From assembly GCA_937139605.1 (NCBI GenBank), contig CAKZQG010000038.1, positions 1 to 62,113 of the forward strand: a DNA stretch of 62,113 nt. The letters are read 5' to 3'. Shown piece after piece: positions 25,799 through 44,355 of this stretch. This DNA is from an uncultured bacterium (GTDB lineage Bacteria; DRYD01). The first letter of the stretch is position 1. Each line of letters starts with the position of its first letter. A program made the translations under genes and the position numbers. Under the pieces are notes generated by a model. It searched no databases. It was not told where the DNA came from and saw only the letters and a program-made list of their open reading frames with translations.

Positions 25799-25867
25799 GC
25801 AGACCTATTTTTATCCCGCCAACTAATCAAGTTAGCCTTATAGTCTGCAGGCGGTATTAGGCTAACT
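25799..25867 (-). ncRNA. Candidate pseudoknot RNA, copy C (secD leader)
   Basis: Read on minus: CCGCC (25854-25850), T, GCAGAC (25848-25843), a 22-nt insert, GGCGG (25820-25816), an A-rich linker GATAAAAATAG, then GTCTGC (25804-25799). CCGCC pairs GGCGG, and GCAGAC pairs GTCTGC, in crossing order. An extra arm AGTTAGCCT (25867-25859) pairs perfectly with AGGCTAACT (25838-25830) inside the insert, again crossing. The same core occurs at 42935-42971 and 44317-44355. The surrounding 150 bp (25791-25930) have 62 G/C by my count, about 41 percent, well above the neighbourhood, which fits a structured RNA. The outer boundaries are unknown. Confidence 0.6.
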
Positions 25868-26140
25868 ACAAACCTTACACCAAGCACAAGACCTAACATC
25901 CTTTCTATCCTATTCCAATCCCCTAAAATTTTCCTTAGCATAGTTAATTTAAAAAACTTAATAAGAATACCTACAATTCCCTTAACAACTGTCTAAATAG
26001 TATCTTTATATATTTCCATATTTTTTTGTATCTTCTTTAATTAACGGATGTTATTGCGTTAAACCTTTTTAATAATTTTTATCAACTGTTTTAATCGTCT
26101 AAAATATAATATATTTCACTTTAAAAGTCATTAAAAAAAT
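25868..26140. other. Gene-free part of the metE-secD spacer
   Basis: Together with the secD-side elements this makes a 384-bp spacer, the longest in the window. The portion nearest the pseudoknot (to about 25940) is GC-richer and purine-rich on minus, and could be part of the same RNA. Further upstream it is AT-rich again, with an inverted repeat TTAACG (26041-26046) and CGTTAA (26057-26062). An open frame of 51 codons runs across the pseudoknot (25786-25941 on minus) but has no Shine-Dalgarno. I could not place a convincing promoter. Confidence 0.5.
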
Positions 26141-27286
26141 TTAAAAATACTTAGATTTAATTTCGTTAACAGCTTCAACCATATTAACTAGCTTTCTAAA
26201 AGAGATATCCCAAGTCCTAGTTCTTAATCCACAATCAGGTGCAATATATAATCTATAAGGATCACCAACAAAATCTAATGCATATAATATTCTTTCTTTA
26301 ATGAGCTCCTTAGGTTCAATAAAATCAGTATGAACATCAATAACCCCTAAACCAGCAATAAACTTAGAATCCTTAAAATGCTTTAAAATCTCAAATCCTT
26401 TTCTATTACTCTTCCCTAATTCAATACTATCTCTATTTGCATATTCAAAATGAAACTCATCTATAATCCCTTCTAATTCATATAAATAAGGAAATAATAA
26501 AGAATAATCAGAAAAACAAATATGAATAGAAAAAAATAAATTAGAATTATATTGTTCTTTTAAAGGATAAATAGTTTTCTTAATAGTGGTAATAAATAAG
26601 TCAATTTCATTTTTTTTAGTAGTAGCAGCAGGTTCATCTATCTGTATATATTTAACCCCTAAATCTATCAAAGATTTTATATTTTCCTTAACAATAGAAG
26701 ATATGTCTGTTAAAAAATTTAATCTACTATCTTTAATAGCTGAGACATTCTGTCCAATAGAAACGTTTTTAAAATAAAATTCATCAAACGACCAATCAAC
26801 TAAAGTATAAGGTCCTGTTAAAGGAATCTTTACATTCTTATTAGCAATACTTAAAATACTTTTAGCCTCTTGTAAGTGATAATAATTCTTTAACTTAGGT
26901 TTATCAATAACAGCAGCTTTTCTATAATATTTATAATCAAAACTAACTACATGATCCCTAAATTCAAACCCATCAATATTCTTAATAGGATATTCATACA
27001 TTTCAACTCTATGTTGCTCACCATCATATACTAAATCTAAACCAGCTTTTTCTAATAATCTAATAGCATACAATGAAGAATAATAAATTATCTTATTTTT
27101 ATCATCTTCAGAAAATTCGACTTTATTAGAAAGCAAATTAATTAACCCTTCATATTCATTTATATTCAAAACTTTAGCCCACTTTTTAGCTTCTAAAATA
27201 TCATTTTCATCAATAGGTAAGTTCCTAAAAGGTTTAACCCTCCAAGATGGCTTAGCTAAAGACCCTATTTCATGAGTTAGTAACAT
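26141..27286 (-). CDS. Core-type cobalamin-independent methionine synthase (MetE C-terminal family)
   Basis: 381-residue protein with only the catalytic barrel of MetE, as in core-MetE (Mes) enzymes of archaea and some bacteria. Motifs: THEIGSLAKP at the N-terminus, YDGEQHRVEM, LTGPYT, the substrate loop YIQIDEPA, zinc ligands in FSIHICFSD (His and Cys) and the last Cys in IAPDCGLRTR. Such enzymes transfer a methyl group to homocysteine from a corrinoid protein or an unidentified donor rather than methyl-tetrahydrofolate. A strong GGAGGTAAT precedes ATG. It is the last gene downstream of rpsM-ruvX. Confidence 0.87.
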   Translation of the reverse strand: MLLTHEIGSLAKPSWRVKPFRNLPIDENDILEAKKWAKVLNINEYEGLINLLSNKVEFSEDDKNKIIYYSSLYAIRLLEKAGLDLVYDGEQHRVEMYEYPIKNIDGFEFRDHVVSFDYKYYRKAAVIDKPKLKNYYHLQEAKSILSIANKNVKIPLTGPYTLVDWSFDEFYFKNVSIGQNVSAIKDSRLNFLTDISSIVKENIKSLIDLGVKYIQIDEPAATTKKNEIDLFITTIKKTIYPLKEQYNSNLFFSIHICFSDYSLLFPYLYELEGIIDEFHFEYANRDSIELGKSNRKGFEILKHFKDSKFIAGLGVIDVHTDFIEPKELIKERILYALDFVGDPYRLYIAPDCGLRTRTWDISFRKLVNMVEAVNEIKSKYF

Positions 27287-27318
27287 TTTAATATTACCTC
27301 CAAAAATTAATACAATTT

Positions 27319-27756
27319 TTAATAAATACTAATATAAGATTTTAAAATCCAAACTGCGGATAAACTATCTATGTTATTTTTTAATTTTTTTTTCACTTTA
27401 TTTTTCTTATTTTTAAAAGTAGAATATTTTATCAGGTTGTTAGCTAAAAAAGTAGTATATTCTTCTTCTATATAGTCAATTTCAATAGATATGTTATTTT
27501 CCATTAAAAAACCTTGTAAATTTTGAGCAAAATCTTGGATTTGATAAAAAATAGGGCTTTCTTCATAAGTTTTAGTAAAAACAGGTTTCCCTATAATTAT
27601 TTTTTTTACATTATAATTTAAAACAATCTGCTTAATTTTATAAAATATATTTTTATTATTAGAAAATACACCAATAGGGGTTATATTTTTAGAAATAGAA
27701 TTAGCAATAGCTATCCCGATTTTTTTAGTACCCCAATCTATACCTAATATTCTCAT
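27319..27756 (-). CDS. ruvX: Putative pre-16S rRNA nuclease / Holliday junction resolvase, YqgF family
   Basis: 145-residue RNase H-fold nuclease. It starts [17 protein letters not shown] (the DxGxKxxG catalytic strand), has IIIGKP in the middle and EEYTTFLAN, matching the E.xTS..A segment, then [12 protein letters not shown] with the final acidic residue. The family processes the 16S 5' end. Its ATG overlaps the rpsM stop codon (ATGA), so it is translated with the ribosomal operon. Confidence 0.92.
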
Positions 27757-28124
27757 TTCTTTTTAGTTCCAATTCTATTAGGTCTAGGGCCTTTACGTGT
27801 TCTTGCATTAGTTCTAGTTCTTTGCCCTCTTACAGGTAATCCCTTTTGATGACGAATTCCCCTATAGCATCTTATTTCAATTAATCTTCTTATATTTTGA
27901 TTTATTTCTCTTCTTAAATCCCCTTCAACAACATAATTATTATCAATAAATTGTTGAATTTTAGTGACTTCTTCAGGTGTTAAATCTTTTGCCTTCTTAT
28001 AAGGATCAATATTACAAGCTTTAAGTATTTCCATTGCTCTTGTTTTCCCTATTCCATAGATATACCTTAAAGATATCCATAATTGTTTATTTTCTGGAAT
28101 ATTAACCCCTGATATACGAGGCAT
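27753..28124 (-). CDS. rpsM: Ribosomal protein S13 (uS13)
   Basis: 123-residue small-subunit head protein that contacts tRNA in the P site and bridges to the 50S. It starts [10 protein letters not shown] with YIYGIG, and ends in the basic tail [20 protein letters not shown]. The genes that normally follow it (rpsK, rpsD, rpoA, rplQ) are replaced by ruvX, so the alpha operon is broken here. Confidence 0.98.
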
Positions 28125-28159
28125 AAAAAATCCCCCTTCTAATTTTTAATTTTTATTTT

Positions 28160-28273
28160 TTATCCTTGTACTTGCTTATGTTTTTTATTTTTACAAATAA
28201 CTCTAATTTTTCCTTTTCTTTTTATAACTTTACAATATGCACATATTTTTTTAACACTAGCTCTTACTTTCAT
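28160..28273 (-). CDS. rpmJ: Ribosomal protein L36 (bL36)
   Basis: 37-residue protein, [20 protein letters not shown] followed by [13 protein letters not shown]. The zinc-ribbon ligands CxxC, C and H are all present. A Shine-Dalgarno GGAGGG precedes ATG. It sits between rplF and rpsM; infA, which usually comes just before it, is absent. Confidence 0.97.
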
Positions 28274-28320
28274 AAAATTTTCCCTCCTAAAAAATATAAA
28301 AATTAATTAAATTAATAAAA

Positions 28321-28890
28321 TTACTTACCTTTTGCACCTTTCTTACTTTCTTTTAAAACTAATTCTTCATCAGCATACCTAATTCCTTTACCTTTATAGG
28401 AATCAGGTTTTCTAAAACTTCTTATATTAGCAGCCACTTGACCTACTAATTCCTTATCTATTCCCTCTACAATTATTTTTTGATTTCCTTCTACCTTCAA
28501 AGCTATACCTTCTGGAGGGTAATAAATAACAGGATGAGAATACCCAACTAAAAGCTCAATTCCTTTATCTTTTTGATTAACTTTCCAACCTAAACCAACA
28601 ACCAATAACTCCTTTCTAAATCCTTCATTCACTCCCTTAACCATAGAATTAATAATACTCCAAACAGTACCTAATAATTTATTAACAAATCTATCTATTT
28701 TTTTATTAGGAATACTTTCATTTTTCTTAGAAATATAAACGTTATTTTCTTTAATTTCTACATTAATATAATTTAGATTTAGTTTTTTAGATATTTTTCC
28801 TTTAGGTCCATTAACAATAACTTCATTATCTTTTATTTCTAAAGTAGTATTTTTAGGTAATAAGATGGGTTTTTTAATAAGTTTAGACAT
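28321..28890 (-). CDS. rplF: Ribosomal protein L6 (uL6)
   Basis: 189-residue two-domain protein near the GTPase centre of the 50S subunit. It ends with the conserved C-terminal motif IRSFRKPDSYKGKGIRY, and has VNGPKGK near the N-terminus. The next gene downstream is rpmJ 47 bp away. rplR, rpsE, rpmD, rplO, secY, adk, map and infA, which normally lie here, are missing. Confidence 0.98.
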   Translation of the reverse strand: MSKLIKKPILLPKNTTLEIKDNEVIVNGPKGKISKKLNLNYINVEIKENNVYISKKNESIPNKKIDRFVNKLLGTVWSIINSMVKGVNEGFRKELLVVGLGWKVNQKDKGIELLVGYSHPVIYYPPEGIALKVEGNQKIIVEGIDKELVGQVAANIRSFRKPDSYKGKGIRYADEELVLKESKKGAKGK

Positions 28891-28921
28891 AATTAACCCT
28901 CCTTAATTAATAAATAAAAAA

Positions 28922-29317
28922 TTAATAAATATAACCAATAACTTCCCCACCTAATTTTTGTTTATAAGCATCTTTATGGGATAAAACTCCCTTAGAAGTG
29001 GAAAGAATACTAATTCCTATACCTTTAAAAACAAGTGGAATATTATCATAAGGAGCATAAATCCTTCTTCCCGGCTTACTTATTCTGATCAAATCATTTA
29101 TAACAGATTTTCCTTTATAATATTTCAAATAAACTACAAAATCATACATATAATCGTTAACAGGTTCAATTTTATAATCTAGAATATATCCTTCTTTTTT
29201 AAGTACATCTAATATTCTTCTTTTGAAATTAGATCCCGGGATTTTAACGAATTCTTTTTTTCTAGTAACAGCATTTTTAATTCTAGCAAACATATCAGCA
29301 ATAGGATCAGTAAGCAT
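28922..29317 (-). CDS. rpsH: Ribosomal protein S8 (uS8)
   Basis: 131-residue central-domain protein of the 30S subunit. It begins MLTDPIADMFARIKNA and ends with STSKGVLSHKDAYKQKLGGEV, the typical STS.G...d.eAr....GGe. The start is decided by AAAGGAGGG eleven bases upstream; a longer in-frame reading would overlap rpsN and has no better site. Confidence 0.98.
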   Translation of the reverse strand: MLTDPIADMFARIKNAVTRKKEFVKIPGSNFKRRILDVLKKEGYILDYKIEPVNDYMYDFVVYLKYYKGKSVINDLIRISKPGRRIYAPYDNIPLVFKGIGISILSTSKGVLSHKDAYKQKLGGEVIGYIY

Positions 29318-29337
29318 TTTACATACCCTCCTTTTAA

Positions 29338-29523
29338 TTACCAACTTGCTTTTTTAACACCAGGAAGTAATCCATTATAAGCCATTTTTCTAAGACACAT
29401 TCTACAAATCCCAAAAAACCTGAAATATCCTCTAGGCCTTCCACAAACTTGACATCTATTTCTAAATCTTACTTTAAATTTAGGTTCTCTTTTCCATTTT
29501 TCTAATTGTCCTTTTCTTGGCAT
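29338..29523 (-). CDS. rpsN: Ribosomal protein S14, zinc-binding type (uS14)
   Basis: 61-residue short form. The zinc ligands are CQVCGRPRG and CRMC, and the protein ends [11 protein letters not shown], as in type Z S14. It lies between rplE and rpsH in the usual spc order. A Shine-Dalgarno GAAGGGGG precedes ATG. Confidence 0.98.
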
Positions 29524-29573
29524 ACAAACCCCCTTCTTCTTATCTATTTATTTTCTATTTTTTATATAAAAAA

Positions 29574-30125
29574 CTATTTTTGAAAAGGAAAACCTAATAA
29601 TCTAAGTAATTCATAAGCTTCCTTATCAGTTTTAGCAGTAGTAACTACTGTTATATCCATTCCCCTAACTTTATCAATATCATCATAAGATAATTCAGGA
29701 AATATTAATTGTTCTTTAATTCCAAGAGTATAATTCCCTTTACCGTCAAATTTCTTTGAAATCCCTTTAAAGTCTCTTATTCTAGGTAATACTATAGAAA
29801 TTAATTTATCCAAAAATGCCCACATTCTAGCTTTCCTTAGAGTAACTTTTAATCCTATTTTCATACCTTTTCTTAATTTAAAATTAGAAATAGATTTCCT
29901 AGCAGAAATAACTAATGGAGTTTGGCCAGTTATTATTTGTAATTGTTTTTGTACCTTTTTTATTATATCTTGATTTTGAGTAGCATCACCTACTCCCATA
30001 TTAACTACTACCTTCTCTATCCTAGGAATCTCCATTACATTCTTATAATTAAATATATTTTGTAACTCTTTAACTACTTCATCTTTATATTTTCTATACA
30101 ATCTTAATTCATTTTGCTTAATCAT
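29574..30125 (-). CDS. rplE: Ribosomal protein L5 (uL5)
   Basis: 183-residue protein of the 50S central protuberance that binds 5S rRNA. It contains [31 protein letters not shown], the RDFKGIS segment and a C-terminal [18 protein letters not shown]. Length is normal. It lies in standard order between rplX and rpsN. Confidence 0.98.
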
Positions 30126-30162
30126 ATAAAATCTCCTCCAGTATTTAATTTATTTAATTTAT

Positions 30163-30507
30163 TTATTTTTCTTGATTTTTTATTTCCTGATTACATTTTT
30201 TACAGATTCTAATTTTCTTAGTTTTTCCTTGATCTTGAATTATTTTAAAACCGACTCTAGTAGGCTTAGTACAGTTAGGACAAATAAGCATAACCTTAGA
30301 AACATCAATAGGCCTTTCTATTTTAACAATTTTTGGTTCCTTTTTAGGAGTATCTTCTAATGTAGGCACTTTTACATGCTTTTTAACAATATTAATCCCT
30401 TGTAATAAAACTGAATTATCTTTTCTAAAAACTTTAATAACCTTAGATACTTCTCCTTTATATTTTCCTTTAATAACAACTACTTTATCTCCCTTATGAA
30501 TTTTCAT
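30163..30507 (-). CDS. rplX: Ribosomal protein L24 (uL24)
   Basis: 114-residue protein that starts 50S assembly. The KOW motif is in KIHKGDKVVVIKGKYKGEV. The C-terminal half carries a four-cysteine zinc ribbon, LICPNCTKPTRVGF and ICKKCNQ. That is present in part of the family and may add heat stability. It is in the usual position after rplN. Confidence 0.97.
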   Translation of the reverse strand: MKIHKGDKVVVIKGKYKGEVSKVIKVFRKDNSVLLQGINIVKKHVKVPTLEDTPKKEPKIVKIERPIDVSKVMLICPNCTKPTRVGFKIIQDQGKTKKIRICKKCNQEIKNQEK

Positions 30508-30528
30508 AATTTATCACCTACCTTAAAA

Positions 30529-30897
30529 CTATACTACTTCAGTAGCTAAGGATAAAATTTTAGTAAATCCTTTTTCTTTTAATTCCCTAGGGATAGGTCC
30601 AAAGATACGAGTTCCTTTCGGGTTCCCTTGTTCATCTATTAAAACAACTGCATTATCATCAAACCTAACATAACTTCCATCATTCCTTCTATATTTTCTT
30701 TTCATTCTAACAATAACTGCAGTAACGACATCTCCCTTTTCTACATTAGAATGAGGAATAGCATCTTTAACAGAAACTTTAACAATATCCCCAATATATG
30801 CATATTTTCTATACCAATTGTTATACATCCCAATAAGCTGTACAACTTTAGCTCCCGAATTATCTGCTACAACTAATTTAGTCATTCTTGGCAACAT
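30529..30897 (-). CDS. rplN: Ribosomal protein L14 (uL14)
   Basis: 122-residue protein at the 30S-50S interface. [11 protein letters not shown] near the start, [18 protein letters not shown] and [22 protein letters not shown] near the end are the family signatures. It lies in standard order. An AAGGGGGAATATATT region precedes the start. Confidence 0.98.
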
Positions 30898-30943
30898 AAT
30901 ATATTCCCCCTTTATTATTTAATCTAATTTTTCTTATTAATTT

Positions 30944-31201
30944 TTAAATTTTTTGAGCTTTTTCTAATATCTTTATTACAACCCATCTCTTTAATTTACT
31001 TAAAGGCCTACTTTCCAATATCAAAACCTTATCACCTTCTTGACATTCATTGTTCTCATCATGAGCATAATATTTTTTATAAGTTTTAACAATCTTTTTA
31101 TAAATAGGATGTTTTTTTAAATATTCCACTTTAACTACTACAGTTTTATCCATTTTATTACTAACTACAATACCTTCTAATTTCTTTTTATTAGTTCTCA
31201 T
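30944..31201 (-). CDS. rpsQ: Ribosomal protein S17 (uS17)
   Basis: 85-residue primary 16S rRNA-binding protein with the OB fold. It reads [20 protein letters not shown] at the N-terminus and [18 protein letters not shown] further on, the S17 signature. It lies between rpmC and rplN. Confidence 0.98.
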
Positions 31202-31210
31202 ACTTCAAAA

Positions 31211-31426
31211 TCACTCCTTAACTTCTTTATTTTTTTTAATAGATAAGAAATACTTTATTCTTGCTATTTTTTTTCTTAATAATGAAAGTAAATGAGGCTT
31301 AAAATCTGGGGAAATATTCATTTTTAACTTATTATCAAAATACTCTTTTTTAGTTTTCCTTAATTCATTAACTAAATCCTGATATTCTAAAGATCTAAGG
31401 AATTCCAATTCTTTTTTAGATTTCAT
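31211..31426 (-). CDS. rpmC: Ribosomal protein L29 (uL29)
   Basis: 71-residue helical protein at the peptide exit tunnel rim, a docking point for trigger factor and SRP. It starts MKSKKELEFLRSLEYQDL and ends KKNKEVKE. The ATG lies close after AAAGGAGGT; a GTG four codons upstream overlaps this site and is unlikely to be used. Confidence 0.94.
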   Translation of the reverse strand: MKSKKELEFLRSLEYQDLVNELRKTKKEYFDNKLKMNISPDFKPHLLSLLRKKIARIKYFLSIKKNKEVKE

Positions 31427-31452
31427 TATAAAATACACCTCCTTTGTAAAAT

Positions 31453-31860
31453 CTATTCTTTTTCAACGATTTTTGTTTTAACTGGTAATTTATAAGAAGC
31501 TTGGGTTAATACTTCATAAGCATCTTCTCTTTTTAATCCAGTTAATTCAAACATAACAGTTCCTGGTCTAACTACTGCAACATATTTTTCAACATCAGCT
31601 TTTCCTCCACCCATCCTAGTTTCTGCAGGCTTTTTAGTAACTGGTTTATGTGGGAATATTCTAATCCATAATTTTCCACCCTTTTTAAGATTTTTAGAAA
31701 TAACAATCCTTGCAGCCTCTATTTGATTAGCTGTAATCCAATTAGGTTCCAATGCCATTAATCCATAATCTCCAAATGCTACATAATTACACTTAGTAGC
31801 TTTTCTTTTCATTCTACCTCTTCTCTCTTTCCTAAATTTTCTTTTCTTTGGTGCTAACAT
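31453..31860 (-). CDS. rplP: Ribosomal protein L16 (uL16)
   Basis: 135-residue protein contacting the A-site tRNA on the 50S. It starts [18 protein letters not shown] and has [23 protein letters not shown] and [19 protein letters not shown], the family signatures. The arginine hydroxylated in some bacteria would lie in the RMGGGK loop. It lies between rpsC and rpmC. Confidence 0.98.
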
Positions 31861-31919
31861 ATTTTATAACACCCCTTTTATTTAAAATTAAATTTTAGTT
31901 TAAATTAAATTACAAAAAA

Positions 31920-32687
31920 CTAAATTTCTTTAGGCATAGACGCTAATTTAAGTTTTTCTAATACTTCAAATTGCTTTTTAGTTTCTTCATCCTTAAATGT
32001 CATTCCTTTATATATCCATACTTTAACTCCAATTACTCCCCATTTAGTCATTGCTTCATCTAAAGCATAATCTATATCAGCCATTAAAGTTTGTAAAGGT
32101 ACCTTACCTAAGATTATTCTCTCTCTTCTAGCTAATTCAGCACCATCTAACCTACCTGCAACTTCTACTCTAACCCCTTGAGCACCTACTCTTATAACCC
32201 TTATAGCAGCAGCTCTCATAGCTCTCCTAAAACTAACTCTTTGTTCTAATTGTCTTGCTATACTATGAGCAACTAATTTTGCACTTAAATCAGGATGCTC
32301 TACTTCCTTAACTTCAATAACAACTTCTTTATTAAACTCTTTAAAAATAGCTTGCTTTAAAGCTTCTATATCACTACCCCTTTTTCCTATAACTATAGCA
32401 GGCTTAGATGTATATATAGTTATATGTAAATTATTAGATTTCCGTCCTATAATTATTTTTTCAATAGAAGCAGGATTAGGATCCTTAAATTTAGCACTAC
32501 CTTCTTTTATTTTCAATCCCATCTTCTTTATTATACTTTTTCTAATATAAGTAAATATAAATTTTCTTATTTTATTATCTTCAATAACAGCAGCTTGATA
32601 ATCTTTCTTTTTTGGGAAAAACCAAATACTATCCCAATATTTATTTATTCCTAATCTTAGAGCCTTAGGATGTACTTTCTGACCCAA
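31920..32687 (-). CDS. rpsC: Ribosomal protein S3 (uS3), TTG start
   Basis: 255-residue mRNA-entry protein with a KH domain. The family start MGQKVHPKALRLG is matched if the TTG at 32687 initiates: it lies 9 bases after AAGGAGGTG, whereas the longer reading would begin with a GTG inside that site. The KH motif reads VIGKRGSDIEALKQAI, and the C-terminal domain has GAQGVRVEVAGRLDGAE. A TTG start on so highly expressed a gene is notable. Confidence 0.95.
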   Translation of the reverse strand: MGQKVHPKALRLGINKYWDSIWFFPKKKDYQAAVIEDNKIRKFIFTYIRKSIIKKMGLKIKEGSAKFKDPNPASIEKIIIGRKSNNLHITIYTSKPAIVIGKRGSDIEALKQAIFKEFNKEVVIEVKEVEHPDLSAKLVAHSIARQLEQRVSFRRAMRAAAIRVIRVGAQGVRVEVAGRLDGAELARRERIILGKVPLQTLMADIDYALDEAMTKWGVIGVKVWIYKGMTFKDEETKKQFEVLEKLKLASMPKEI

Positions 32688-32711
32688 AAAAAACACCTCC
32701 TTATTTAATTT

Positions 32712-33275: not shown

Positions 33276-33317
33276 AATATAAGCCCCCTTTAGTAATTAT
33301 TTTTTATCTTTTATTTT

Positions 33318-33596
33318 TTATTTTTTCTCTTTAGCTCCTTTCTTTTCAGGATGGCCTTTAAAAGTTCTAGTAGGAGCAAACTCACCAAGTTTATGACCTA
33401 TCATTTGTTCAGTAACATATACAGGCACATGCCCTTTCCCATTATGAACTAAAAAAGTAAGCCCTACCATCTCAGGTATAATGGTACTCCTTCTAGACCA
33501 AGTTTTAATAGTTTTTTCTCCGGCTTGAATAGCTTTTAAAACTTTTTTATATAATTTTTCATCAACAAATGGCCCTTTTTTAGAACTTCTACCCAT
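33318..33596 (-). CDS. rpsS: Ribosomal protein S19 (uS19)
   Basis: 92-residue protein of the 30S head. It starts [15 protein letters not shown] and contains [23 protein letters not shown] and [18 protein letters not shown], the complete signature. It lies between rplB and rplV as usual. Confidence 0.98.
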
Positions 33597-33607
33597 AAAT
33601 CCCCTCC

Positions 33608-36193: not shown

Positions 36194-36210
36194 ATTAACT
36201 ACCTCCTTCT

Positions 36211-37488
36211 TTAAATTTTATATAATGTTAGTTTTCTATAATATAAAAAACTAAAAATAGCAAATAAAACAATTAATAAAGAAAATAGTTTATAAATAAA
36301 AATTAATCCAGTAAAATAAGCGATATTACCTAATATAAAAGCTCCTAAAAAACCTAAGGATATATTTAATAAAGAATATAAAGATATAACTCTGGCAACA
36401 TAAAGAGAGTCTGTTACAATCTGAACCCTATTATTAGATATCCCAAAGACTAAAGATTGTAAAAGCCCAATAAAAGGCATTAAATAATAAATATATTTAG
36501 GGAAAAAAGAAATAATTAAAAATAAAACTCCATATAAAAATATAATAACTTCTTCAGAGAAATAAACAACAAAATTAGAACTAAGAGAGGCAACAAAAAT
36601 AGCTCCAATAATTGCCCCTATACCCAATAAAGAAAGAATTAGAGAAAAATTAGAGATAGTTCCCTTTAAAATATCCTTAGTAAAAACTTGCAATAAAGCC
36701 AATAAAGATAACCCTAAGAAATTAATAGCAGCTATATTCATAAAACTTTTTAAAATTAATTTATTATCATATATATATTTTAAAACTTCTTTTATTTCTT
36801 TTATTATATTATTATTTTTAATTTGATTATTTTTATCAGAGTAAAAATCTGGGATATTTTTAGAAAAAATTAATAAAAAAATAAGGGGTAAAAAAGAAAA
36901 ACAATTAAAAAGAAAACCAGCATAGATTCCATATTTTTTAGCTAAGAAAGCAGCAATAATAGGGCCAACTACCCTTGATAAATTGAAAGTCAATCCTTGT
37001 AAGCTAAAAGCACTTGTTAAATCTTTTTCTTTTATTATATTTTTTATTAATGCACTCCTAGCAGGGAAATAAAAACTCATAGTAATCCCACCAATAAACC
37101 CTAATATCAACAAATAAAAACCATTTATTTTATTAGCATATACTAAATAAGTTATTAAGCAAGCATTAAGAAAATCAATAATTTGAATAAAAATTAATAC
37201 TTTTTTATAACCCCATCTATCAATAATACTTCCACTAATAAAAGAAAAAAACAAAGAAGGTAAAAATCTAATCAAATTAAAATTACCAGTAAATTGAGAA
37301 GCAACATTAGGATTAGAAAATATAATATTAATAATCCATTGTCTTAATGTATAATCAACCCAATTACCTATTAAAGATACTCCTTGAAAAAACCAAAAAT
37401 AAAAATAAAACTGGTTTTTTAAAGCCCTAAACGGATTTAAAAAATTATTACCTTTATTATTTATTTCCATAACTACTTGATTAACCAT
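36211..37488 (-). CDS. MFS transporter inserted in the S10 ribosomal operon
   Basis: 425-residue integral membrane protein with about twelve helices. N-terminal features FWFFQGVSLIGNWVDYTLRQW and the loop DRWGYKKVLI (MFS motif A) match the MFS_3/enterobactin exporter (EntS)-like family, as do FPARSALIKNII and LSRVVGPIIAAFLAKKYG. The substrate is unknown. It lies between rpsJ (18 bp) and rplC (17 bp), all on the same strand, so it is almost certainly cotranscribed with ribosomal genes. Base composition looks like its neighbours, giving no sign of recent transfer. Start is ATG; a second Met six codons in is possible. Confidence 0.88.
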   Translation of the reverse strand: MVNQVVMEINNKGNNFLNPFRALKNQFYFYFWFFQGVSLIGNWVDYTLRQWIINIIFSNPNVASQFTGNFNLIRFLPSLFFSFISGSIIDRWGYKKVLIFIQIIDFLNACLITYLVYANKINGFYLLILGFIGGITMSFYFPARSALIKNIIKEKDLTSAFSLQGLTFNLSRVVGPIIAAFLAKKYGIYAGFLFNCFSFLPLIFLLIFSKNIPDFYSDKNNQIKNNNIIKEIKEVLKYIYDNKLILKSFMNIAAINFLGLSLLALLQVFTKDILKGTISNFSLILSLLGIGAIIGAIFVASLSSNFVVYFSEEVIIFLYGVLFLIISFFPKYIYYLMPFIGLLQSLVFGISNNRVQIVTDSLYVARVISLYSLLNISLGFLGAFILGNIAYFTGLIFIYKLFSLLIVLFAIFSFLYYRKLTLYKI

Positions 37489-37506
37489 AATAAATTAGCA
37501 TTAAAA

Positions 37507-37821
37507 TCATATTGTTTTAATAATAACTTCAACGCCTTCAGGTAAATCTATTTTTTTAATTTCTTCAATAGTTTTAGGAGTATAATCAGCTATTTCAAGT
37601 AATCTTTTATGAATCTTAATTTCAAAATGTTCTCCAGATCTTTTATCAACATGGGGTGATCTTGTAATACAAAATACTCTACGTTTAATAGGTAAATACA
37701 CTGGCCCAATTACTTTAGCACCTGTACCCAAAGCCATATCTATTATCCTATTAACAGATTTATCTAATAACTTATGATCCCAACTAACTAACTTTATTCT
37801 TATCTTTGGTAATTTACTCAT
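37507..37821 (-). CDS. rpsJ: Ribosomal protein S10 (uS10)
   Basis: 104-residue protein, also the transcription factor NusE. IRIKLVSWDHKLLDKSVNRI, GPVYLPIKRRVFCITRSPHVDKRSGEHFEI and the ending LPEGVEVIIK are typical. It heads the ribosomal cluster; GGGGGT precedes ATG. fusA/tuf, often upstream, are not here. Confidence 0.98.
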   Translation of the reverse strand: MSKLPKIRIKLVSWDHKLLDKSVNRIIDMALGTGAKVIGPVYLPIKRRVFCITRSPHVDKRSGEHFEIKIHKRLLEIADYTPKTIEEIKKIDLPEGVEVIIKTI

Positions 37822-37845
37822 AAAAAATTAACCCCCATTCTTATT

Positions 37846-37873
37846 TTTATACTCTTGTAATTATTTTATTCAA
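37846..37873 (-). promoter_or_regulatory. Candidate promoter of the S10 operon
   Basis: On the minus strand TTGAAT (37873-37868), a 16-base spacer and TATAAA (37851-37846) resemble a sigma-70 type promoter. Start of transcription would fall near 37838, giving a short leader before the GGGGGT ribosome-binding site of rpsJ. In AT-rich DNA such boxes arise by chance, so this is only a best candidate. Confidence 0.4.
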
Positions 37874-37943
37874 TATAAATCCATTTTTCCCTTTTTATAA
37901 CTATAAAAAAAATATATATTAAATAAAAAAACTTTAATAAAAG

Positions 37944-39005
37944 CTACATAACTATATTTTTCCCCAATATTATCAATAAATTTCTTTTAATTTCATTTAA
38001 ATTAATACTTTCTATTTTTTCTACATTATTATCTATAACTTTAAAATCTATTATATTTAAATTTATTTTATATAAATTATCTAAAAAGAAAGTATAAAAA
38101 AATAAATTATTGTCATCAGTAGTATAATAATTTAACACAGGATCATATAAAAAATTCTCTAAATTAAGATCATCTAAAAACACTTCTTCCTTACTAACAC
38201 TGATTTTTAGTCTTAAATTTAAAGGAATCTCGTGTTTAGTTTCATTCTTATTTTTATCTTTGATAAAACTAACTAAATTTACATATACACTTTTATCTTC
38301 TATTTTTTCTATTTTTTCTATTTTTTCAATATTAATTTCATAGATCTCTTTAGAATTATCGATATATCTTTGTTGATTTAAATTAGATGCTATTAATTCT
38401 ATCAGTTGAATATCTTGAATATTCCTTATTTTATTTTTGTAATATTTATAAAATAATTGGGATAATTTTTTATTATTTTTAGCTAAGTCAATTGGAGACA
38501 AATTAGAAATATTAGTAATATAAGGAGAAGCTCCTTTAGATAATAAGTAATTAGTTATAATTAAATTTTGGTTCATACAAGCATAATGTAAAGGAGTATT
38601 ACCAAAATTATCTATAGAATTTATATCATAAAAATTTACCAATAACTTTAAAGCATTAAAATTATTTAATTTAGAAGCCCAATGTAAAGGAGTCAAATTA
38701 TTATCATCCCTTAAATTTAAAGATATAAAATAATCACTCATAATTTTTAAAACATCTATCTTATTATACATTATAGCCCACATAACAGGAGTAAATCCAT
38801 TATAATCCTTTCTAATTAAAATAAAATAATCATTTTCTAAGATATTCTTTATTTTTTCTATATCGTTGTTTAATATTAATTTCTTAAAATTTTTTAAATA
38901 CTCATCTTCATAATAAGCAAATAAATTAATCTTGAAAATTAATAAAAAAGTAATTAAAAATAGCAGTATTTTTTTTATTTTTATTATTGTTATTTTCCTA
39001 ATCAT
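37944..39005 (-). CDS. Exported ankyrin-repeat protein
   Basis: 353-residue protein with an N-terminal signal peptide or anchor (about 9-30, KIKKILLFLITFLLIF). Four or so ankyrin repeats follow (about 65-185), for example NGFTPVMWAIMYNKIDVLKI, NLTPLHWASKLNNFNALKLL and GNTPLHYACMNQNLIITNYL. The last ~150 residues are not repeat-like and are not recognised. A 9-bp tandem repeat in the DNA (38301-38327) encodes repeated IEK triplets. It probably mediates protein contacts in the periplasm. GGAGGTGA precedes the start. Confidence 0.8.
   Translation of the reverse strand: MIRKITIIKIKKILLFLITFLLIFKINLFAYYEDEYLKNFKKLILNNDIEKIKNILENDYFILIRKDYNGFTPVMWAIMYNKIDVLKIMSDYFISLNLRDDNNLTPLHWASKLNNFNALKLLVNFYDINSIDNFGNTPLHYACMNQNLIITNYLLSKGASPYITNISNLSPIDLAKNNKKLSQLFYKYYKNKIRNIQDIQLIELIASNLNQQRYIDNSKEIYEINIEKIEKIEKIEDKSVYVNLVSFIKDKNKNETKHEIPLNLRLKISVSKEEVFLDDLNLENFLYDPVLNYYTTDDNNLFFYTFFLDNLYKINLNIIDFKVIDNNVEKIESINLNEIKRNLLIILGKNIVM
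38301..38327. repeat. Short 9-bp tandem repeat inside the ankyrin gene
   Basis: Three exact copies of TATTTTTTC lie head to tail and keep frame, encoding IEK units on the minus strand. It could vary in copy number by slippage without breaking the reading frame. Confidence 0.8.
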
Positions 39006-39041
39006 AACTTATTCACCTCCAAAAAATTCATTTAAAATCAA

Positions 39042-39461
39042 TTATAAAAAATAATTTAATTTAAAAAAAACAGTAAAAATAAAAAAAGAAAAAACCAAGA
39101 AATACTCAAAAACTGAGCCTGTTTTTAATAATTTAAAAGAAATTCTAGGATAATAAGAAAAAAATAAAGGAACCCCATTTATTGTTAATAAATCAGCTAA
39201 TAAATGTGAAAAATACCCTACACTTATAGGTAATAATATAAAGCTAAGGTTTTTATAAACAATAGATAAAATTAATAAAATAAGAGGTATAATAAAATGA
39301 TGTGTAAATCCCCTATGAGAAAGCCAAAAATTATTCTTAAAATACTTACCCCATATTATATCTAAATCAGGAATCAATGCTCCAATTATACTCAATATAG
39401 GATTAACATTAAAAATTAAACCAAAACAAAAACCCACTAAAATATGAGATTTCTTTGTCAT
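39042..39461 (-). CDS. DUF457/YdjM-family membrane-bound metal-dependent hydrolase
   Basis: 139-residue protein with about four membrane helices. The family motifs are present: SHILVGF at the start, GALIPDLD, SHRGFTHHF and the HLLADLLTINGVPLFF segment. His and Asp residues of these motifs would form the metal site. The family is widespread; in E. coli YdjM is SOS-regulated, but the reaction is unknown. Confidence 0.87.
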   Translation of the reverse strand: MTKKSHILVGFCFGLIFNVNPILSIIGALIPDLDIIWGKYFKNNFWLSHRGFTHHFIIPLILLILSIVYKNLSFILLPISVGYFSHLLADLLTINGVPLFFSYYPRISFKLLKTGSVFEYFLVFSFFIFTVFFKLNYFL

Positions 39462-39491
39462 ATTAACTGATTTACTTATTTATTTTTTATC

Positions 39492-41426
39492 CTAATCGAT
39501 TTCTATAAATTCCACGATATCTTTAGCAAATATTTGATTTTTTAATCCTTTTGAATTAATAGCATCTTCAAACATCATTAAACAATATGGGCAAGAAGTA
39601 GCCACTACTTTAGCGTTTATATTTAAAACTTCTTCTAATCTTTCATGATTTATTTTTTTAGTAGTTTTATCTTCTTTAAAGTACATCCCCCCACCAGCCC
39701 CACAACAAAAAGAGTTATCCCTATTTCTTAATAACTCCCTATATTTTGATACATTCTTAACAACATCCCTAGGAAAATCATAAATATCATTATGCCTGCC
39801 TAAATAGCACGCATCATGATAAGTAACTAAATCACTTTCTTTGTTTATTTTTAATTTATTTTCTTTTAATAAATTACTTAATAAAATAGAATGATGAATA
39901 ACTTGATAATTAAAATCTTTATCAACAAGATGATATTCATTTTTAAAAGTATTAAAACAATGAGCACAATTAACTAAAATTTTATTAAATTTATATTGCT
40001 TAAAATTATTAATATTATTGGTTGCTTGTAATTGAAAGAGGTATTCATTTCCAGTTCTTCTAGCGATATCGCCAGTACAAGTTTCACCAGAAAAAATAGC
40101 AAAATCTATATCTAATTTTTTTAAAATTTTTATTAATTTAATAGCAACATTTTGAGCTCTTTCATTATATATACTAGCACAGCCTATAAAATATAGATAT
40201 TCCGCTTGCTTGACATCTTCTATAAAATTAACATTTAAATCTTCTTTTAATTTATTAAAAAATTGTTTTTTAGATATATTAGTACCTTTAAAAGGATGTT
40301 CTCTTGATTCAATAGAATTAAATATTTCTTGAATAGGAAGAGGAATCTCAGCTTTTTCCATAACTAAATTTTGCCTAAATCTTATTATCTTATCTAAGGG
40401 ATTTATAAAAACAGGGCAAGCATTAACACAAGCAGCACAAGTAGTACAACTCCAAATAGCATCAAAAGAAATCGAATGATTTATAATACCGCTATTATTT
40501 TTATTTTGATAATGTTCTAAAAGGTTAACAATAATAGATTTGGGAGATAATGGTTTAGAAGTTAAAAAAGCAGGACATGCATCCTGACATCTCCCACATT
40601 CAGTACAACTAAAAACCTCTAATAAATCTCTGGTATTTAAATCTTTAATATTATCTATTCCAAATTTCTCAGTTTTTTCTAAATCAATTAATTCTATTTT
40701 ATTAGTAGTTTTATAACCATAGGCATCATCTGAAGTAAAAACACTAACAGGTGCTAGAATCATATGAATCATCTTTGTTTTACTTAAACTATAAATAAAG
40801 CCAAAAATTAATAGATTATTAATAAACCATAAAAAATTATACAAAAATTTATAAATTATCAAATTCCCATTTATAACGTAATTTAAAATTGAATAAGATA
40901 AATCAGAAGTTAAATAAATATTAGTAAAAAATTCATTATTAAATAAAACGAACTTAGTCCCTTGAATAAAAAAAGAATTAATAGCTATAAAAAATAACAA
41001 AATTAAACTAATAAAATAATTATCTTTTATAGAATTTTTTATAATTCTTTCTACTTTTAGCAAGTACCTTCTAGCTAATGCTAAAATTACCCCAATTAGT
41101 AAAAATAAAATAAATATATCTAAAAGCAAATTATAAATTCTAAGATTAATAAAGAAAAAAATAATACTAAATAAAGAACCTAATACTCCAAAGAATACAC
41201 TAGAATGCATTAACTTCGTCCTAAAATTAGAAATCCTTTTTTGATAAATAACATTTAAGAATAAATTTTTTATTAATCTAAAATATCCATATTTTTTAAT
41301 ATAACTTATAATCTGATTTTTTAAATCAGATATAACTAAAAATTTTTCTTTTGATTTCAAAAATAAAATATAAATAGAAATACATAATACAAATAAAATA
41401 ATTAGAAATTTAAAACCAACAGCCAT
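39492..41426 (-). CDS. EtfD-like membrane Fe-S oxidoreductase (HdrBC/GlpC type)
   Basis: 644-residue fusion. Residues 1-215 hold about six membrane helices of NarI-like type with candidate haem ligands His74 (RTKLMHSSVFFG) and His221 (KMIHMILAP). Two 4Fe-4S motifs follow: CTECGRCQDACP (274/277/280/284) and CTTCAACVNACP (327/330/333/337). Two CCG-type domains come last, with CAHCFNTF, CYLGRHN, FCCGAGGGMYF and SCPYC. This is the architecture of EtfD, which passes electrons from reduced ETF to menaquinone. EtfA is encoded at 16738-17739. The upstream region has a duplicated 12-bp motif shared with fabH. A heterodisulfide-reductase-like role is the alternative. Confidence 0.85.
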   Translation of the reverse strand: MAVGFKFLIILFVLCISIYILFLKSKEKFLVISDLKNQIISYIKKYGYFRLIKNLFLNVIYQKRISNFRTKLMHSSVFFGVLGSLFSIIFFFINLRIYNLLLDIFILFLLIGVILALARRYLLKVERIIKNSIKDNYFISLILLFFIAINSFFIQGTKFVLFNNEFFTNIYLTSDLSYSILNYVINGNLIIYKFLYNFLWFINNLLIFGFIYSLSKTKMIHMILAPVSVFTSDDAYGYKTTNKIELIDLEKTEKFGIDNIKDLNTRDLLEVFSCTECGRCQDACPAFLTSKPLSPKSIIVNLLEHYQNKNNSGIINHSISFDAIWSCTTCAACVNACPVFINPLDKIIRFRQNLVMEKAEIPLPIQEIFNSIESREHPFKGTNISKKQFFNKLKEDLNVNFIEDVKQAEYLYFIGCASIYNERAQNVAIKLIKILKKLDIDFAIFSGETCTGDIARRTGNEYLFQLQATNNINNFKQYKFNKILVNCAHCFNTFKNEYHLVDKDFNYQVIHHSILLSNLLKENKLKINKESDLVTYHDACYLGRHNDIYDFPRDVVKNVSKYRELLRNRDNSFCCGAGGGMYFKEDKTTKKINHERLEEVLNINAKVVATSCPYCLMMFEDAINSKGLKNQIFAKDIVEFIEID

Positions 41427-41441
41427 AAAATAAATCCTTTC

Positions 41442-41474
41442 TTAATAAACTACTTCACTTCCTTAATAAACTAC
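41442..41474 (-). promoter_or_regulatory. Tandem 12-bp motif upstream of the EtfD-like gene
   Basis: TTAATAAACTAC occurs twice, at 41442-41453 and 41463-41474, an exact 21-bp period, or two turns of the helix; a C precedes both. On the minus strand it reads GTAGTTTATTAA. The nearer copy ends 15 bp from the start codon and abuts the ribosome-binding region (AAAGGA). The same motif lies at 45407 before fabH. It could be a regulator binding on one DNA face, perhaps responding to acyl-CoA. Confidence 0.5.
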
Positions 41475-41611
41475 CCACCTAATAGTATTTTTAGCTTCTT
41501 GTTTTATATTAGATAATCAGCCTTTTAATAATGTTAAAACTGTTCTATTTTTGGTACTTTTTCATTTAGAAATATCTTTAAATACTATATTTTTCTACTA
41601 ATATTTTATAA

Positions 41612-41653
41612 AGATAAATTTATTTTCATCTTGCAGCAAATAGAAATTTATCT
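41612..41653 (-). terminator. Inverted repeat downstream of the nucleotidyltransferase gene
   Basis: AGATAAATTT (41612-41621) and AAATTTATCT (41644-41653) are perfect 10-bp complements around a 22-base loop. It begins 10 bp after the stop codon of the upstream gene on the minus strand. It is followed by TTATAAAA rather than a clean T-tract, so it may be a weak terminator or a 3'-end stabilising hairpin. The rest of the 237-bp spacer is AT-rich with no gene. Confidence 0.4.
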
Positions 41654-41663
41654 CTTTATTTTA

Positions 41664-42512
41664 TTAAATTTTTGTTAATAAAGAATTATTATAATAAAAT
41701 TCTAAATCTTGTTTTTTATCTATATTAAAAGCTAATTCAGGATAATTAGTTAATATAGCATGCGCTTTTATGTTAAATAAATCGCTAATTTTTTGTTCTA
41801 ATTCTAAAACAGTTAAATTTTTGAAAATTAATTTAATAAAAATATCATATCCAAAAATTTCGGCTAATTTTAAAGGTTTTTTTCTATTTTCTAAGATAGT
41901 TTCTAATAAATTCATAAACTTAGGAGTAATATTTTTTTTAATAACAAACAAGGAAGCCGCACAAAAAGAATCGTTTTTAAACTTAACAAAAGTCCTTAAT
42001 TTAGAAGCTTTACTAGAAAATTTAACTTCATAAACCTCTTTACTAACAATTGGTAAAAATACATCCCCATCTATATAATCTAATCTGAATAAAATATCGT
42101 TTATGCTTTCATAGGAAATAAAAGGTACATCAGTAGCTACAAATAAAAAATACTCATCATCTTCATTATTAATATTTCTCTTATCTTCATTTAACAACTT
42201 ATTTAAAACATTTTTTATAGTATCTACTAATCTTTCCCCACTAAATACTATCTCATAATCTATTAAATATTTTTTTATATTCTCAAAATTACTAACTGGT
42301 AAATTATTTACATAATTTAAGTAATTTTCAGGTAAAGTGATAATTTTTTTTATTATTTTAGAATTATCATATTTAGAGAATATTTCGAATATTTTTTCAA
42401 TAATGGTTAATTCAGAATCTTTTAATTTAAGTAGTGATTTTAATTGATCTTCTAAGATTCCACCACTAAGTAATACCAAATGATATCTTTTAGGATACAA
42501 AGGATTAAACAT
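41664..42512 (-). CDS. GT-A fold nucleotidyltransferase (MobA/NTP_transf_3-like)
   Basis: 282-residue protein. The nucleotide-binding start is degenerate (HLVLLSGGILEDQ instead of the usual AGGxSxRMG). The metal-binding strand reads FLFVATDVPFIS, equivalent to the ATDMPF of MobA-type proteins, and the end ELAFNIDKKQDLEFY matches the common D(I/V)DTPEDLE. Such enzymes move nucleotide groups to sugars or cofactors. No molybdenum cofactor genes are in the window, so substrate is unknown. It lies downstream of cutA. Confidence 0.7.
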   Translation of the reverse strand: MFNPLYPKRYHLVLLSGGILEDQLKSLLKLKDSELTIIEKIFEIFSKYDNSKIIKKIITLPENYLNYVNNLPVSNFENIKKYLIDYEIVFSGERLVDTIKNVLNKLLNEDKRNINNEDDEYFLFVATDVPFISYESINDILFRLDYIDGDVFLPIVSKEVYEVKFSSKASKLRTFVKFKNDSFCAASLFVIKKNITPKFMNLLETILENRKKPLKLAEIFGYDIFIKLIFKNLTVLELEQKISDLFNIKAHAILTNYPELAFNIDKKQDLEFYYNNSLLTKI

Positions 42513-42571
42513 AAACTTTAAAATTTAATTTTCTAATATTTAAAAATTTTGATAATAAAATATATAAAAAA

Positions 42572-42913
42572 TCAGGTAGTAACTTCTACCATCCATTTAA
42601 GATAATCCAAATTACCTGCTTTAATATCCATTACAATTACTTCTGGAACAGTATAAGAGTGATATTTTTTTATAGTTTCTTCTAATTGATCTAATCTTTC
42701 TTCAGTAGTTTTTATAATTAATAAAGATTCTTCATAAATTTCAACATTTTCTTTCCAGGTAAATATGGATTTTAAATTATTAATAATATTAACACAAGCA
42801 GCAAGTTTATTATTAATCAATATTCTCGCAATATTTTCAGCTTCAATAGTATTAGGACAAGTTACAAAAACTACTTTAAAAGGAGAACTTTGTAAATTAT
42901 CCAATTTTTTCAT
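42572..42913 (-). CDS. cutA: CutA divalent-cation tolerance family protein
   Basis: 113-residue trimeric ferredoxin-like protein. VFVTCPNTIEAENIARILINNKLAACVNI, the family signature, runs over positions about 15-43, followed by FTWKENVEIYEESLLIIKT and YTVPEVIVMDI. CutA homologues bind copper and other divalent metals, but physiological role is unclear. The ATG at 42913 is preferred over a TTG two codons upstream. No Shine-Dalgarno is visible; instead a pseudoknot element ends 21 bp before the start, which may matter for translation. Confidence 0.94.
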   Translation of the reverse strand: MKKLDNLQSSPFKVVFVTCPNTIEAENIARILINNKLAACVNIINNLKSIFTWKENVEIYEESLLIIKTTEERLDQLEETIKKYHSYTVPEVIVMDIKAGNLDYLKWMVEVTT

Positions 42914-42934
42914 AGTCAAATATAATCTAGATAA

Positions 42935-42971
42935 GCTGGGATATTTATATTCCGCTTAACCCAGCAAGCGG
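42935..42971 (-). ncRNA. Candidate pseudoknot RNA, copy A (cutA leader)
   Basis: Read on minus: CCGCTT (42971-42966), GCTGGG (42965-42960), TT, AAGCGG (42957-42952), linker AATATAAATAT, CCCAGC (42940-42935). CCGCTT pairs AAGCGG and GCTGGG pairs CCCAGC, in crossing order, forming an H-type pseudoknot. Pairing only CCGCT/AGCGG leaves a one-base T spacer, as in copy C. The 3' arm is not followed by T-rich sequence, so it is not a normal terminator. It starts 23 bp after the upstream stop codon and ends 21 bp before cutA. Confidence 0.65.
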
Positions 42972-42993
42972 TATTTACATATAATTAATATTC

Positions 42994-43509
42994 TTATTTT
43001 AAATCTGGTAGATTCTGAATAAGGTTCTCTAATTTTTTAGCCATTTCTATTAATTCTTGCTTCATTACTCCTTTTAATTTATAATATTGATAAACTTTAT
43101 TAGATAACTCAGAAATAAAATTTAATGTAGATAAAAACAATTGTTCTTCATTATCATCCCAAACCCTCTTAAAACTTTCCTTAGATAAACTTAACTCTAA
43201 ATTAATATTAGATAATTTCACTAAATAATTATCTATTTCATTTAATAAATTTTCATCTTTAGTATTTATAAATTCTTTTAATTTTAAAAGAATAGCATTA
43301 ACTTGAAGTTTATATTCATTAAATTTTGGATTATCTATATTTAGATTTTTAATATCATAATCTAATGCCAATAAATAACTTAATATTAATTGATTTAAAG
43401 AATGTACGTAAGAAGATATTAAATTAAAATTTTTAGCTTTAACAGCTTGTTGTAAGCTGGTAATAGTTTTCTGAATTTCCTGATTTACTTTATTTAATTC
43501 TTGTTCCAT
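42994..43509 (-). CDS. Hypothetical helical protein
   Basis: 171-residue protein predicted to be almost all helix, with heptad-like patterns at both ends (KVNQEIQKTITSLQQAV and ELIEMAKKLENLIQNL). There are no cysteines, no membrane segment and no signal peptide. I do not recognise a family. It lies 48 bp downstream of pdo; the two genes are bracketed by pseudoknot copies B (upstream) and A (downstream). Confidence 0.6.
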   Translation of the reverse strand: MEQELNKVNQEIQKTITSLQQAVKAKNFNLISSYVHSLNQLILSYLLALDYDIKNLNIDNPKFNEYKLQVNAILLKLKEFINTKDENLLNEIDNYLVKLSNINLELSLSKESFKRVWDDNEEQLFLSTLNFISELSNKVYQYYKLKGVMKQELIEMAKKLENLIQNLPDLK

Positions 43510-43557
43510 ATTTTTTTCATTTGATTTTCATCTTTTTTATTTTTTTTATTTTAATAA

Positions 43558-44271
43558 TTAATGTTTATGAAGGGGATTTAATTGATGATCAACAAAATGC
43601 TTAATAACTTCAACAAATTTATTTTCTGGTAAAGCACCTTCTATATCTTCCTCAAATACTTTATTATCCCTTGTTACTAATTTTAAAATAGTCTTAGGTA
43701 CTCCCATTATATTATATTTAATAGCATAATCTTGAAACTCAGAAACTTCCACATTAACAGCTTTTATATTATCACTGACAATAGAAAAAGCAGTGGAATT
43801 AATTGTCATAATAGGACAATATGGACAAGTAGGAGTAACAAATACCCATAATTCTAATACTGCTTGATTATTTTTTAACATATTATCTACTTCTTTTAAA
43901 GTATCAACAGTTTTTTGACTTATTGGTAATTGATTATTAGATACCATAACAATAGAATTCAATAACCAAGTGAATTCATAACCAGCAGGGATCCCTAAAA
44001 ATTTAAAATTATAATCTTTATCAGTTCTTAAAGTTATAGCAGGTAACTCCTTATTTACTCCATACTTATTAGCTAAATCAACATCAATTAACGGATTATA
44101 AATAACTAATTTAAGATTATCTAAAGTTTCTGTCAATTCTTTTAAGAGTTGTTCAGTATCAGTACAATATTCACAACCTATTTTTTGAGAAAATAAAACT
44201 AATTCAGTAGGTTTTAATAGATTTCCAACTTGTTTTTTTATTTCTTGTTTATCTTGCTCATTAATAAACAT
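43558..44271 (-). CDS. Protein disulfide oxidoreductase (two-thioredoxin-fold PDO)
   Basis: 237-residue protein with two thioredoxin-like folds. The N-terminal half has CEYC (Cys33/Cys36), the C-terminal half CPYC (Cys149/Cys152, in TPTCPYCPIM) and the cis-proline GVPKTIL. This is the glutaredoxin-like PDO of thermophiles, which makes and rearranges disulfides in cytoplasmic proteins. Many have the same CPYC in the second unit. A clear AAAGGAGG precedes ATG. Pseudoknot copy B lies 45 bp upstream in the leader. Confidence 0.93.
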   Translation of the reverse strand: MFINEQDKQEIKKQVGNLLKPTELVLFSQKIGCEYCTDTEQLLKELTETLDNLKLVIYNPLIDVDLANKYGVNKELPAITLRTDKDYNFKFLGIPAGYEFTWLLNSIVMVSNNQLPISQKTVDTLKEVDNMLKNNQAVLELWVFVTPTCPYCPIMTINSTAFSIVSDNIKAVNVEVSEFQDYAIKYNIMGVPKTILKLVTRDNKVFEEDIEGALPENKFVEVIKHFVDHQLNPLHKH

Positions 44272-44316
44272 AATAAACCTCCTTTTAATGTTTTTTTAAT
44301 AATTTAATATTAACAT

Positions 44317-44355
44317 GCTGTAATTATTTATATTCCGCTATTACAGCAAAAGCGG
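44317..44355 (-). ncRNA. Candidate pseudoknot RNA, copy B (pdo leader)
   Basis: Read on minus: CCGCT (44355-44351), TTT, GCTGTAAT (44347-44340), AGCGG (44339-44335), linker AATATAAATA, ATTACAGC (44324-44317). The second stem is 8 bp perfect (9 bp with a closing T-A) and differs from copies A and C, yet complementarity is kept. The first stem and linker are the conserved parts. It lies between the fabH stop (35 bp before) and pdo. No T-tract follows. Confidence 0.65.

Follow-up and report, generated by a model that had tools for sequence, protein, structure and literature searches.

The 62,113-nucleotide (nt) contig CAKZQG010000038.1 (assembly GCA_937139605.1; hereafter the window), from a heat-loving, uncultured bacterium, raises the question of why three similar pseudoknots (copies A, B, and C) stand in front of three unrelated-looking genes. 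The initial annotation had proposed them as an H-type pseudoknot family at minus-strand gene leaders, and the three structures were indeed present at the sites given: the crossing pairings and the perfectly paired variable stems (stem c) can be read directly in the sequence, and profile searches place each copy before a same-strand gene, A before secD, B before cutA, and C before pdo. On the minus strand copy B reads CCGCT T GCTGGG TTA AGCGG AATATAAATA T CCCAGC and copy C reads CCGCT TTT GCTGTAAT AGCGG AATATAAATA ATTACAGC. The single covariation claimed for the constant stem (stem b) also holds, the fifth pair being C-G in A and T-A in B and C. We concluded that the three pseudoknots are members of one RNA family, which is absent from Rfam 15 and hence uncatalogued. 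They are probably guide-RNA scaffolds of IS607 transposons that were domesticated as mRNA leaders and would now function in cis.

The exact core pattern matched five sites in the 1.88-Mb host genome (G000; reversed-pattern control, 0) and a looser core pattern matched 21 (control, 0). In the alignment no feature covaries more strongly than stem c, in agreement with the covariation described in the initial annotation. When the best pairing was averaged over 75 non-redundant copies, the mean was 6.60 for the natural arms vs. 3.78 (standard deviation, sd, 0.14) with the 3′ arms swapped, and the largest of 500 shuffles reached 4.16. Against an R-scape-like null based on a tree and coded for this analysis, the four best of 780 column pairs all belonged to stem c (E = 0, 0.03, 0.12, and 0.25). 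Stem b is fixed by the search pattern and was therefore tested separately with a pattern that is unbiased for this stem. Matches to SSSSDATANAAATA in the host genome comprised ∼27 with GCGG and ∼9 others (reversed control, 12), and the unbiased pattern added six to seven further GCGG-linker sites in that genome, of which all three inspected were real. The near-invariance of stem b is thus real and not a search artefact. Natural compensatory variants of stem b were found as CCGCG/CGCGG before rplL (L339) and as GCGCC/GGCGC in two tnpB-linked copies (L369 and L383). One copy in the host genome (L012/L214; G000:C5:48642-48688) keeps stem b and the linker and has no stem-c pairing (TGTAAAC vs. AGTAGGA).

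The crossing of stems b and c bears out the H-type pairing that was first described; the long form, which adds a crossing helix a and a 3′ hairpin d, goes beyond a simple H-type pseudoknot. Its helix order is a b c a′ b′ c′, so that all three helices cross; the 5′ arm of helix a precedes the AAATA linker and the 3′ arm lies between c and b′. In a permutation test on 45 long copies, helix a scored 8.19 vs. 4.33 (sd 0.17). This three-helix form is predicted from comparative evidence. Helix a was absent when tested in the short forms, B and C included, and these have also lost hairpin d and the right-end sequence.

The search for further copies was productive: about 27 were found in the host genome, five to 10 in each of the close relatives G001-G005, and matches occurred in 46 of 121 sampled Aquificota genomes (controls, 0). 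Convincing single copies were present in 5/247 genomes of the phylum of L118, and other carriers are metagenome-assembled genomes labelled Tepidanaerobacteraceae, Desulfobacterales, Desulfurellales, and others. Many pattern matches elsewhere (e.g., a Janthinobacterium/Massilia set) had no stem c and were set aside as fortuitous or unrelated. The position of the copies is consistent: counting only open reading frames (ORFs) of at least 60 amino acids (aa), 134 of 138 have a same-strand start codon 8-75 nt downstream, compared with eight in the opposite-strand control and 18% of random window positions. Except for the profile-searched secD, pdo, and cutA, the genes were named from their N-terminal sequences. 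They include cutA, pdo, secD, rpsB, asnS, atpH, recA, frr, tig, gap, rpsO, and ppdK in the lineage of the window, and hfq, glyA, ndk, porB, thiG, guaB, leuC, metE, rpsM, rho, hpf, acpP, hsp20, lon, and htpX in Aquificota. Genome G304 has two hfq-like genes (L288 and L294) with a leader before each. Over 48 solitary long leaders, hexamers resembling TATAAT are most frequent 20-34 nt ahead of CCGC (33 in three 5-nt bins, ∼3 per bin elsewhere), so the transcripts would begin at helix a and the core would form the mRNA 5′ end.

In relatives the same core is attached to a transposon. It overlaps the 3′ end of an intact or nearly intact tnpB in G342, G330, G349, and G323, and the intact ORFs of G342 and G330 (542-560 aa) end in it. 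The core-linked TnpB protein family recurs in G042, G044, G043, and G334 (also G323 and G349). In G044 the core lies past the tnpB stop codon, and in G334, whose tnpB is 50% identical, it carries the compensatory stem b GCGCC/GGCGC; both facts indicate that it is the RNA that is conserved and not the coding sequence. The tnpA adjacent to tnpB in G330 encodes an IS607-family serine transposase (NF033518, 223.7 bits, cut-off 110), and the TnpB of this genome scores over cut-off with TIGR01765 and TIGR01766; an IS607-family tnpA was found neither adjoining tnpB in G342 nor in the host genome. An assignment to IS200/IS605 TnpB, first made from a Y1 tnpA in L100, was rejected, as the serine-recombinase tnpA, the GG ends, and the protein families point to IS607. 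In L100 (positions 647-1048; L246) the Y1 (IS200-type) tnpA lies upstream of a decayed core-bearing tnpB tail, possibly as a nested or chimeric element. In L247 (1-4001; G042:C105) two element copies lie on opposite strands, at most ∼1.4 kb from each other; one immediately follows a truncated IS607-type serine recombinase, and the other follows the tail of a decayed tnpB. The core is missing from other TnpB genes in G002, G040, G041, and G044. G302 (L371 and L382) carries several copies of a TnpB subfamily (∼44-52% identical) that has a different GC-rich 3′ region and no CCGC/GCGG core.

IS607 reRNA sits 3′ of tnpB and its guide derives from the flank (PMC11061315). In G342, G330, G323, G334, and G044 the core occupies the corresponding place, at the tnpB 3′ end or directly after it and reaching the right end, and is thus the predicted guide-RNA scaffold region of an IS607 TnpB. 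The initial annotation was accordingly right that the family is a real structured, covarying leader RNA that had not been described, and missed its transposon link: in relatives it forms the right-end and predicted guide-scaffold region of IS607 tnpB transposons, so it is not a free-standing riboswitch-like class. The ends also suggest how these elements came to lie at gene starts. The transposon right end is TTAACCAGG; right ends have the sequence ACCAGG and usually lie 5-9 nt ahead of the ATG, and left ends start after an AGGAGG-like sequence. IS607 inserts at GG with a preference for (G)GG (PMC6188088), and IS607 TnpBs with RAGATH-18 reRNAs use the target motif AGGAG or GAGGG (PMC11061315). 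A GG target together with an AGGAG motif makes the Shine-Dalgarno sequence a natural IS607 target, which would explain why the copies sit so close upstream of start codons, and the non-palindromic GG would fix the orientation of insertion.

Comparison of orthologous loci distinguishes a transposon-derived insertion from older leaders. In the sister species G001 (SecD 89% identical) the secD leader is GGAGGGGTATATG with no element. With its IS607-like ends, the lack of a transposase, and this empty site in a relative, copy A belongs to an IS607-derived non-autonomous element, the junction GG itself being worn; it is a transposon-derived insertion that is absent from the sister species. Copies B and C are older retained leaders in the form of stripped-down pseudoknots. 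Copy B stands before cutA in G000, G001, G003, and G005; copy C also stands before pdo in G001 and is absent in G002-G005, where a Shine-Dalgarno sequence (AGGAGG-type) directly precedes the ATG. No Shine-Dalgarno sequence was found before the cutA ATG. The coordinates are collected in Table 1.

Table 1. Pseudoknot copies, their component parts, and downstream genes in the window.
Feature	Position	Strand	Details
Copy A core	25799..25854	minus	Stem b CCGCC (25850-25854)/GGCGG (25816-25820)
Copy A stem c	25843-25848/25799-25804	minus	GCAGAC/GTCTGC; T between CCGCC and GCAGAC
Copy A A-rich linker	25806-25815	minus	GATAAAAATA; then G, then GTCTGC
Copy A helix a	25831..25866	minus	GTTAGCC (25860-25866)/GGCTAAC (25831-25837); crosses stems b and c
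Copy A hairpin d	25772..25797	minus	AAGGGTGTATAA/TTATACACTTTT; adjoins transposon right end (..TTTTGTTAA)
Copy A element, left-end-like sequence	26064..26096	minus	GATTAAAACAGTTGATAAAAATTATTAAAAAGG; resembles IS607 left ends of G342/G330 (TTAAAAACAGTTAACAGAAACTATTAAA)
IS607-derived non-autonomous element around copy A	∼25770-26096		∼0.3 kb; right end near 25770
secD	24491..25756	minus	Downstream of A; TIGR01129, 334.8 bits over cut-off; start codon 49 nt past linker
Copy B, short form	42935..42971	minus	Stem b CCGCT/AGCGG; stem c GCTGGG/CCCAGC; linker AATATAAATA
cutA	42572..42913	minus	Downstream of B; ATG 28 nt past linker; NF041095 match below its cut-off
Copy C, short form	44317..44355	minus	Stem b CCGCT/AGCGG; stem c GCTGTAAT/ATTACAGC; linker AATATAAATA
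pdo (protein disulfide oxidoreductase)	43558..44271	minus	Downstream of C; TIGR02187, 192.9 bits over cut-off

The leaders are found in genomes in which the transposon proteins were sought and not found. No TnpB of the core-linked family was detected in G000-G006, G304, G321, G301, or G298; the host genome is 88.5% complete, so absence there is likely, not certain. The serine recombinase family PF00239 had no match in the host genome, G001, G304, G321, G301, or G298, PF07282 had none in G000, G001, G003, or G004, and PF01797 had none in G000 or G001. Pairing is nevertheless kept while the sequences change. Orthologous leaders are paired by different stems (in an fba-like case, TTCCCG/CGGGAA vs. 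CCTTGG/CCAAGG), the cutA leader stem is GCTGGG in one orthologue and GTTGGGT in another, the frr leader also stays paired, and in the htpX leaders of 11 Aquificota (L277-L287) helix a has been rewritten yet remains paired. Self-pairing exceeds cross-pairing in 17/82 ortholog pairs, the rest being mostly ties between near-identical stems.

We propose the following course of events. In full-length relatives the core would form the 3′ part of the reRNA (omegaRNA) scaffold in a thermophile clade of IS607-family TnpB transposons. The element would land in a Shine-Dalgarno sequence in a single orientation, through joining at GG and recognition of AGGAG by TnpB; the scaffold would then become the 5′ leader of the host gene, the would-be guide being the start of that gene, and tnpA and tnpB would be deleted later. 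Copy A would represent the remnant stage, and copies B and C would be streamlined further; the latter two, having kept their pairing with no TnpB found in the genome, probably serve today in cis as structured leaders of mRNAs. The most likely role of such a structure is to protect or define the 5′ end of the mRNA and to adjust the expression of the gene behind it, which we favor because the predicted transcription start of solitary Aquificota leaders falls at helix a. Copies B and C lie within an apparent operon, and the leader there may act at an internal gene boundary. On a wider scale, the balance tips slightly toward the view that scaffolds of a transposon RNA-guided nuclease have repeatedly been domesticated, nuclease-free, and now form the structured 5′ leader on dozens of housekeeping mRNAs in several thermophilic phyla, because the transposon aimed at Shine-Dalgarno sequences.

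Several observations weigh against this account. The assignment as a scaffold rests on position and conservation, with RAGATH-18 unmatched in the Rfam scans, and the TnpBs of G302 (46% identity) have no core. The cutA copy of G004 is damaged, most of stem c being lost. The genes behind the leaders vary too widely to suggest a single signal, and neither loss of the Shine-Dalgarno sequence in leaders (21/59 vs. 21/42) nor its replacement by the pseudoknot was clearly supported. Solitary leaders with the full a/b/c/d architecture also precede conserved genes such as htpX in TnpB-free Aquificota, which would also fit an older leader captured by a transposon, so the direction from transposon to leader is probable, not proven.

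The last of these observations underlies the explanation we consider unlikely but worth keeping in view, that an old thermophile class of cis-regulatory leaders (riboswitch-like or protein-binding) was captured by IS607 as its right end, so that insertions upstream of genes were tolerated. Solitary full-architecture leaders that carry promoter-like sequences of their own and stand before conserved partners (htpX in 11 genomes, acpP, and hsp20), several of them in TnpB-free genomes, agree with it, as does the invariance of stem b and the linkers beside freely varying stems a and c, the pattern of a binding core. However, the long copies of the host genome have IS607-like left ends, the core takes exactly the place of TnpB guide scaffolds, and the regulated genes share no pathway. 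That the leaders are decaying remnants of miniature inverted-repeat transposable elements (MITEs) with no present role is a rather improbable explanation of the family as a whole, although it may hold for copy A: this copy and ∼16 near-identical long copies in the host genome look like fairly recent IS607 remnants. Neutral debris would not be expected to keep stem c by wholesale compensatory changes between genera, as the short forms do after the flanks and helix a have gone, or to show stem-c covariation above the tree-based null.

A continued role in trans, in which solitary copies still serve as guides and direct TnpB, or a TldR-like protein with a dead nuclease, to leader-free alleles for binding or cleavage, has a precedent in TldR (PMC13418256), and the guide position would fall on the downstream gene start beside an AGGAG target motif. 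We judge it very improbable, given that no TnpB of the core-linked family was found in G000-G005, G304, G321, or G301 and that the short forms lack hairpin d and the right-end sequence. It is harder still to credit that the core works as DNA and not as an RNA structure, be it a promoter, a recombination site, or a palindrome; it does sit at a transposon end and the linker AATATAAATA is promoter-like, but its three helices all cross one another and are found on the mRNA-sense strand every time, past the point where transcription is predicted to start, and a serine recombinase end requires no such pairing.

Domestication of IS607 scaffolds, which we prefer to these alternatives, would connect the world of TnpB and IS607, relatives of the Cas12 ancestors, with an RNA family that covaries strongly and has not been catalogued, and would give a simple reason for the presence of elements at gene starts, the GG target and AGGAG motif together being the Shine-Dalgarno sequence. 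It would also be an instance of an RNA-guided nuclease whose RNA half survives its protein, as an mRNA leader (rpsB, recA, frr, atpH, hfq, htpX, and secD). Direct testing is possible, as several of the carriers seem to be isolates whose genomes are complete.

Among described RNAs, we searched Rfam 15 with the window and 21 loci at the gathering cut-off and with seven loci at E up to 1. There was no relevant match, the RAGATH-18 model included. In the open literature, neither Lechner 2014 (PMC4227106) nor Brewer 2021 (PMC8632094) mentions the core in its main text. The initial annotation had likened it to preQ1-I and SAM-II; a short stem 1, an adjoining A-rich third loop, and the gene-leader position are shared, and the likeness extends to the general fold type and nothing beyond. 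Unlike these riboswitches, the family has a third crossing helix in its long form, no Rfam model match, and no pathway common to its leader genes.

The RAGATH-18-derived reRNA of IS607 TnpB (PMC11061315) resembles the present RNA in the transposon family, in its location 3′ of tnpB reaching the right end, in its scaffold pseudoknots, and in an AG-rich target motif (AGGAG) at the left end with a flank-derived guide. It differs in that the TnpB here is ∼540-560 aa vs. ∼390 aa, the core usually overlaps the tnpB ORF, many copies are solitary gene leaders, and Rfam 15 gives no match. TldR guide RNAs (PMC13418256) are likewise TnpB-derived guide RNAs put to host use in gene control; TldR needs a nuclease-dead TnpB in trans, whereas here the RNA is part of the mRNA itself and no TnpB relative was found in G000-G006, where very divergent proteins or genes in genome gaps could escape detection. 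Copy A and its near-identical relatives in the host genome resemble MITE/PATE elements in having both ends and no tnpA or tnpB. Unlike those elements, they are aimed at Shine-Dalgarno sites in a single orientation, and what they leave behind is a conserved RNA structure.

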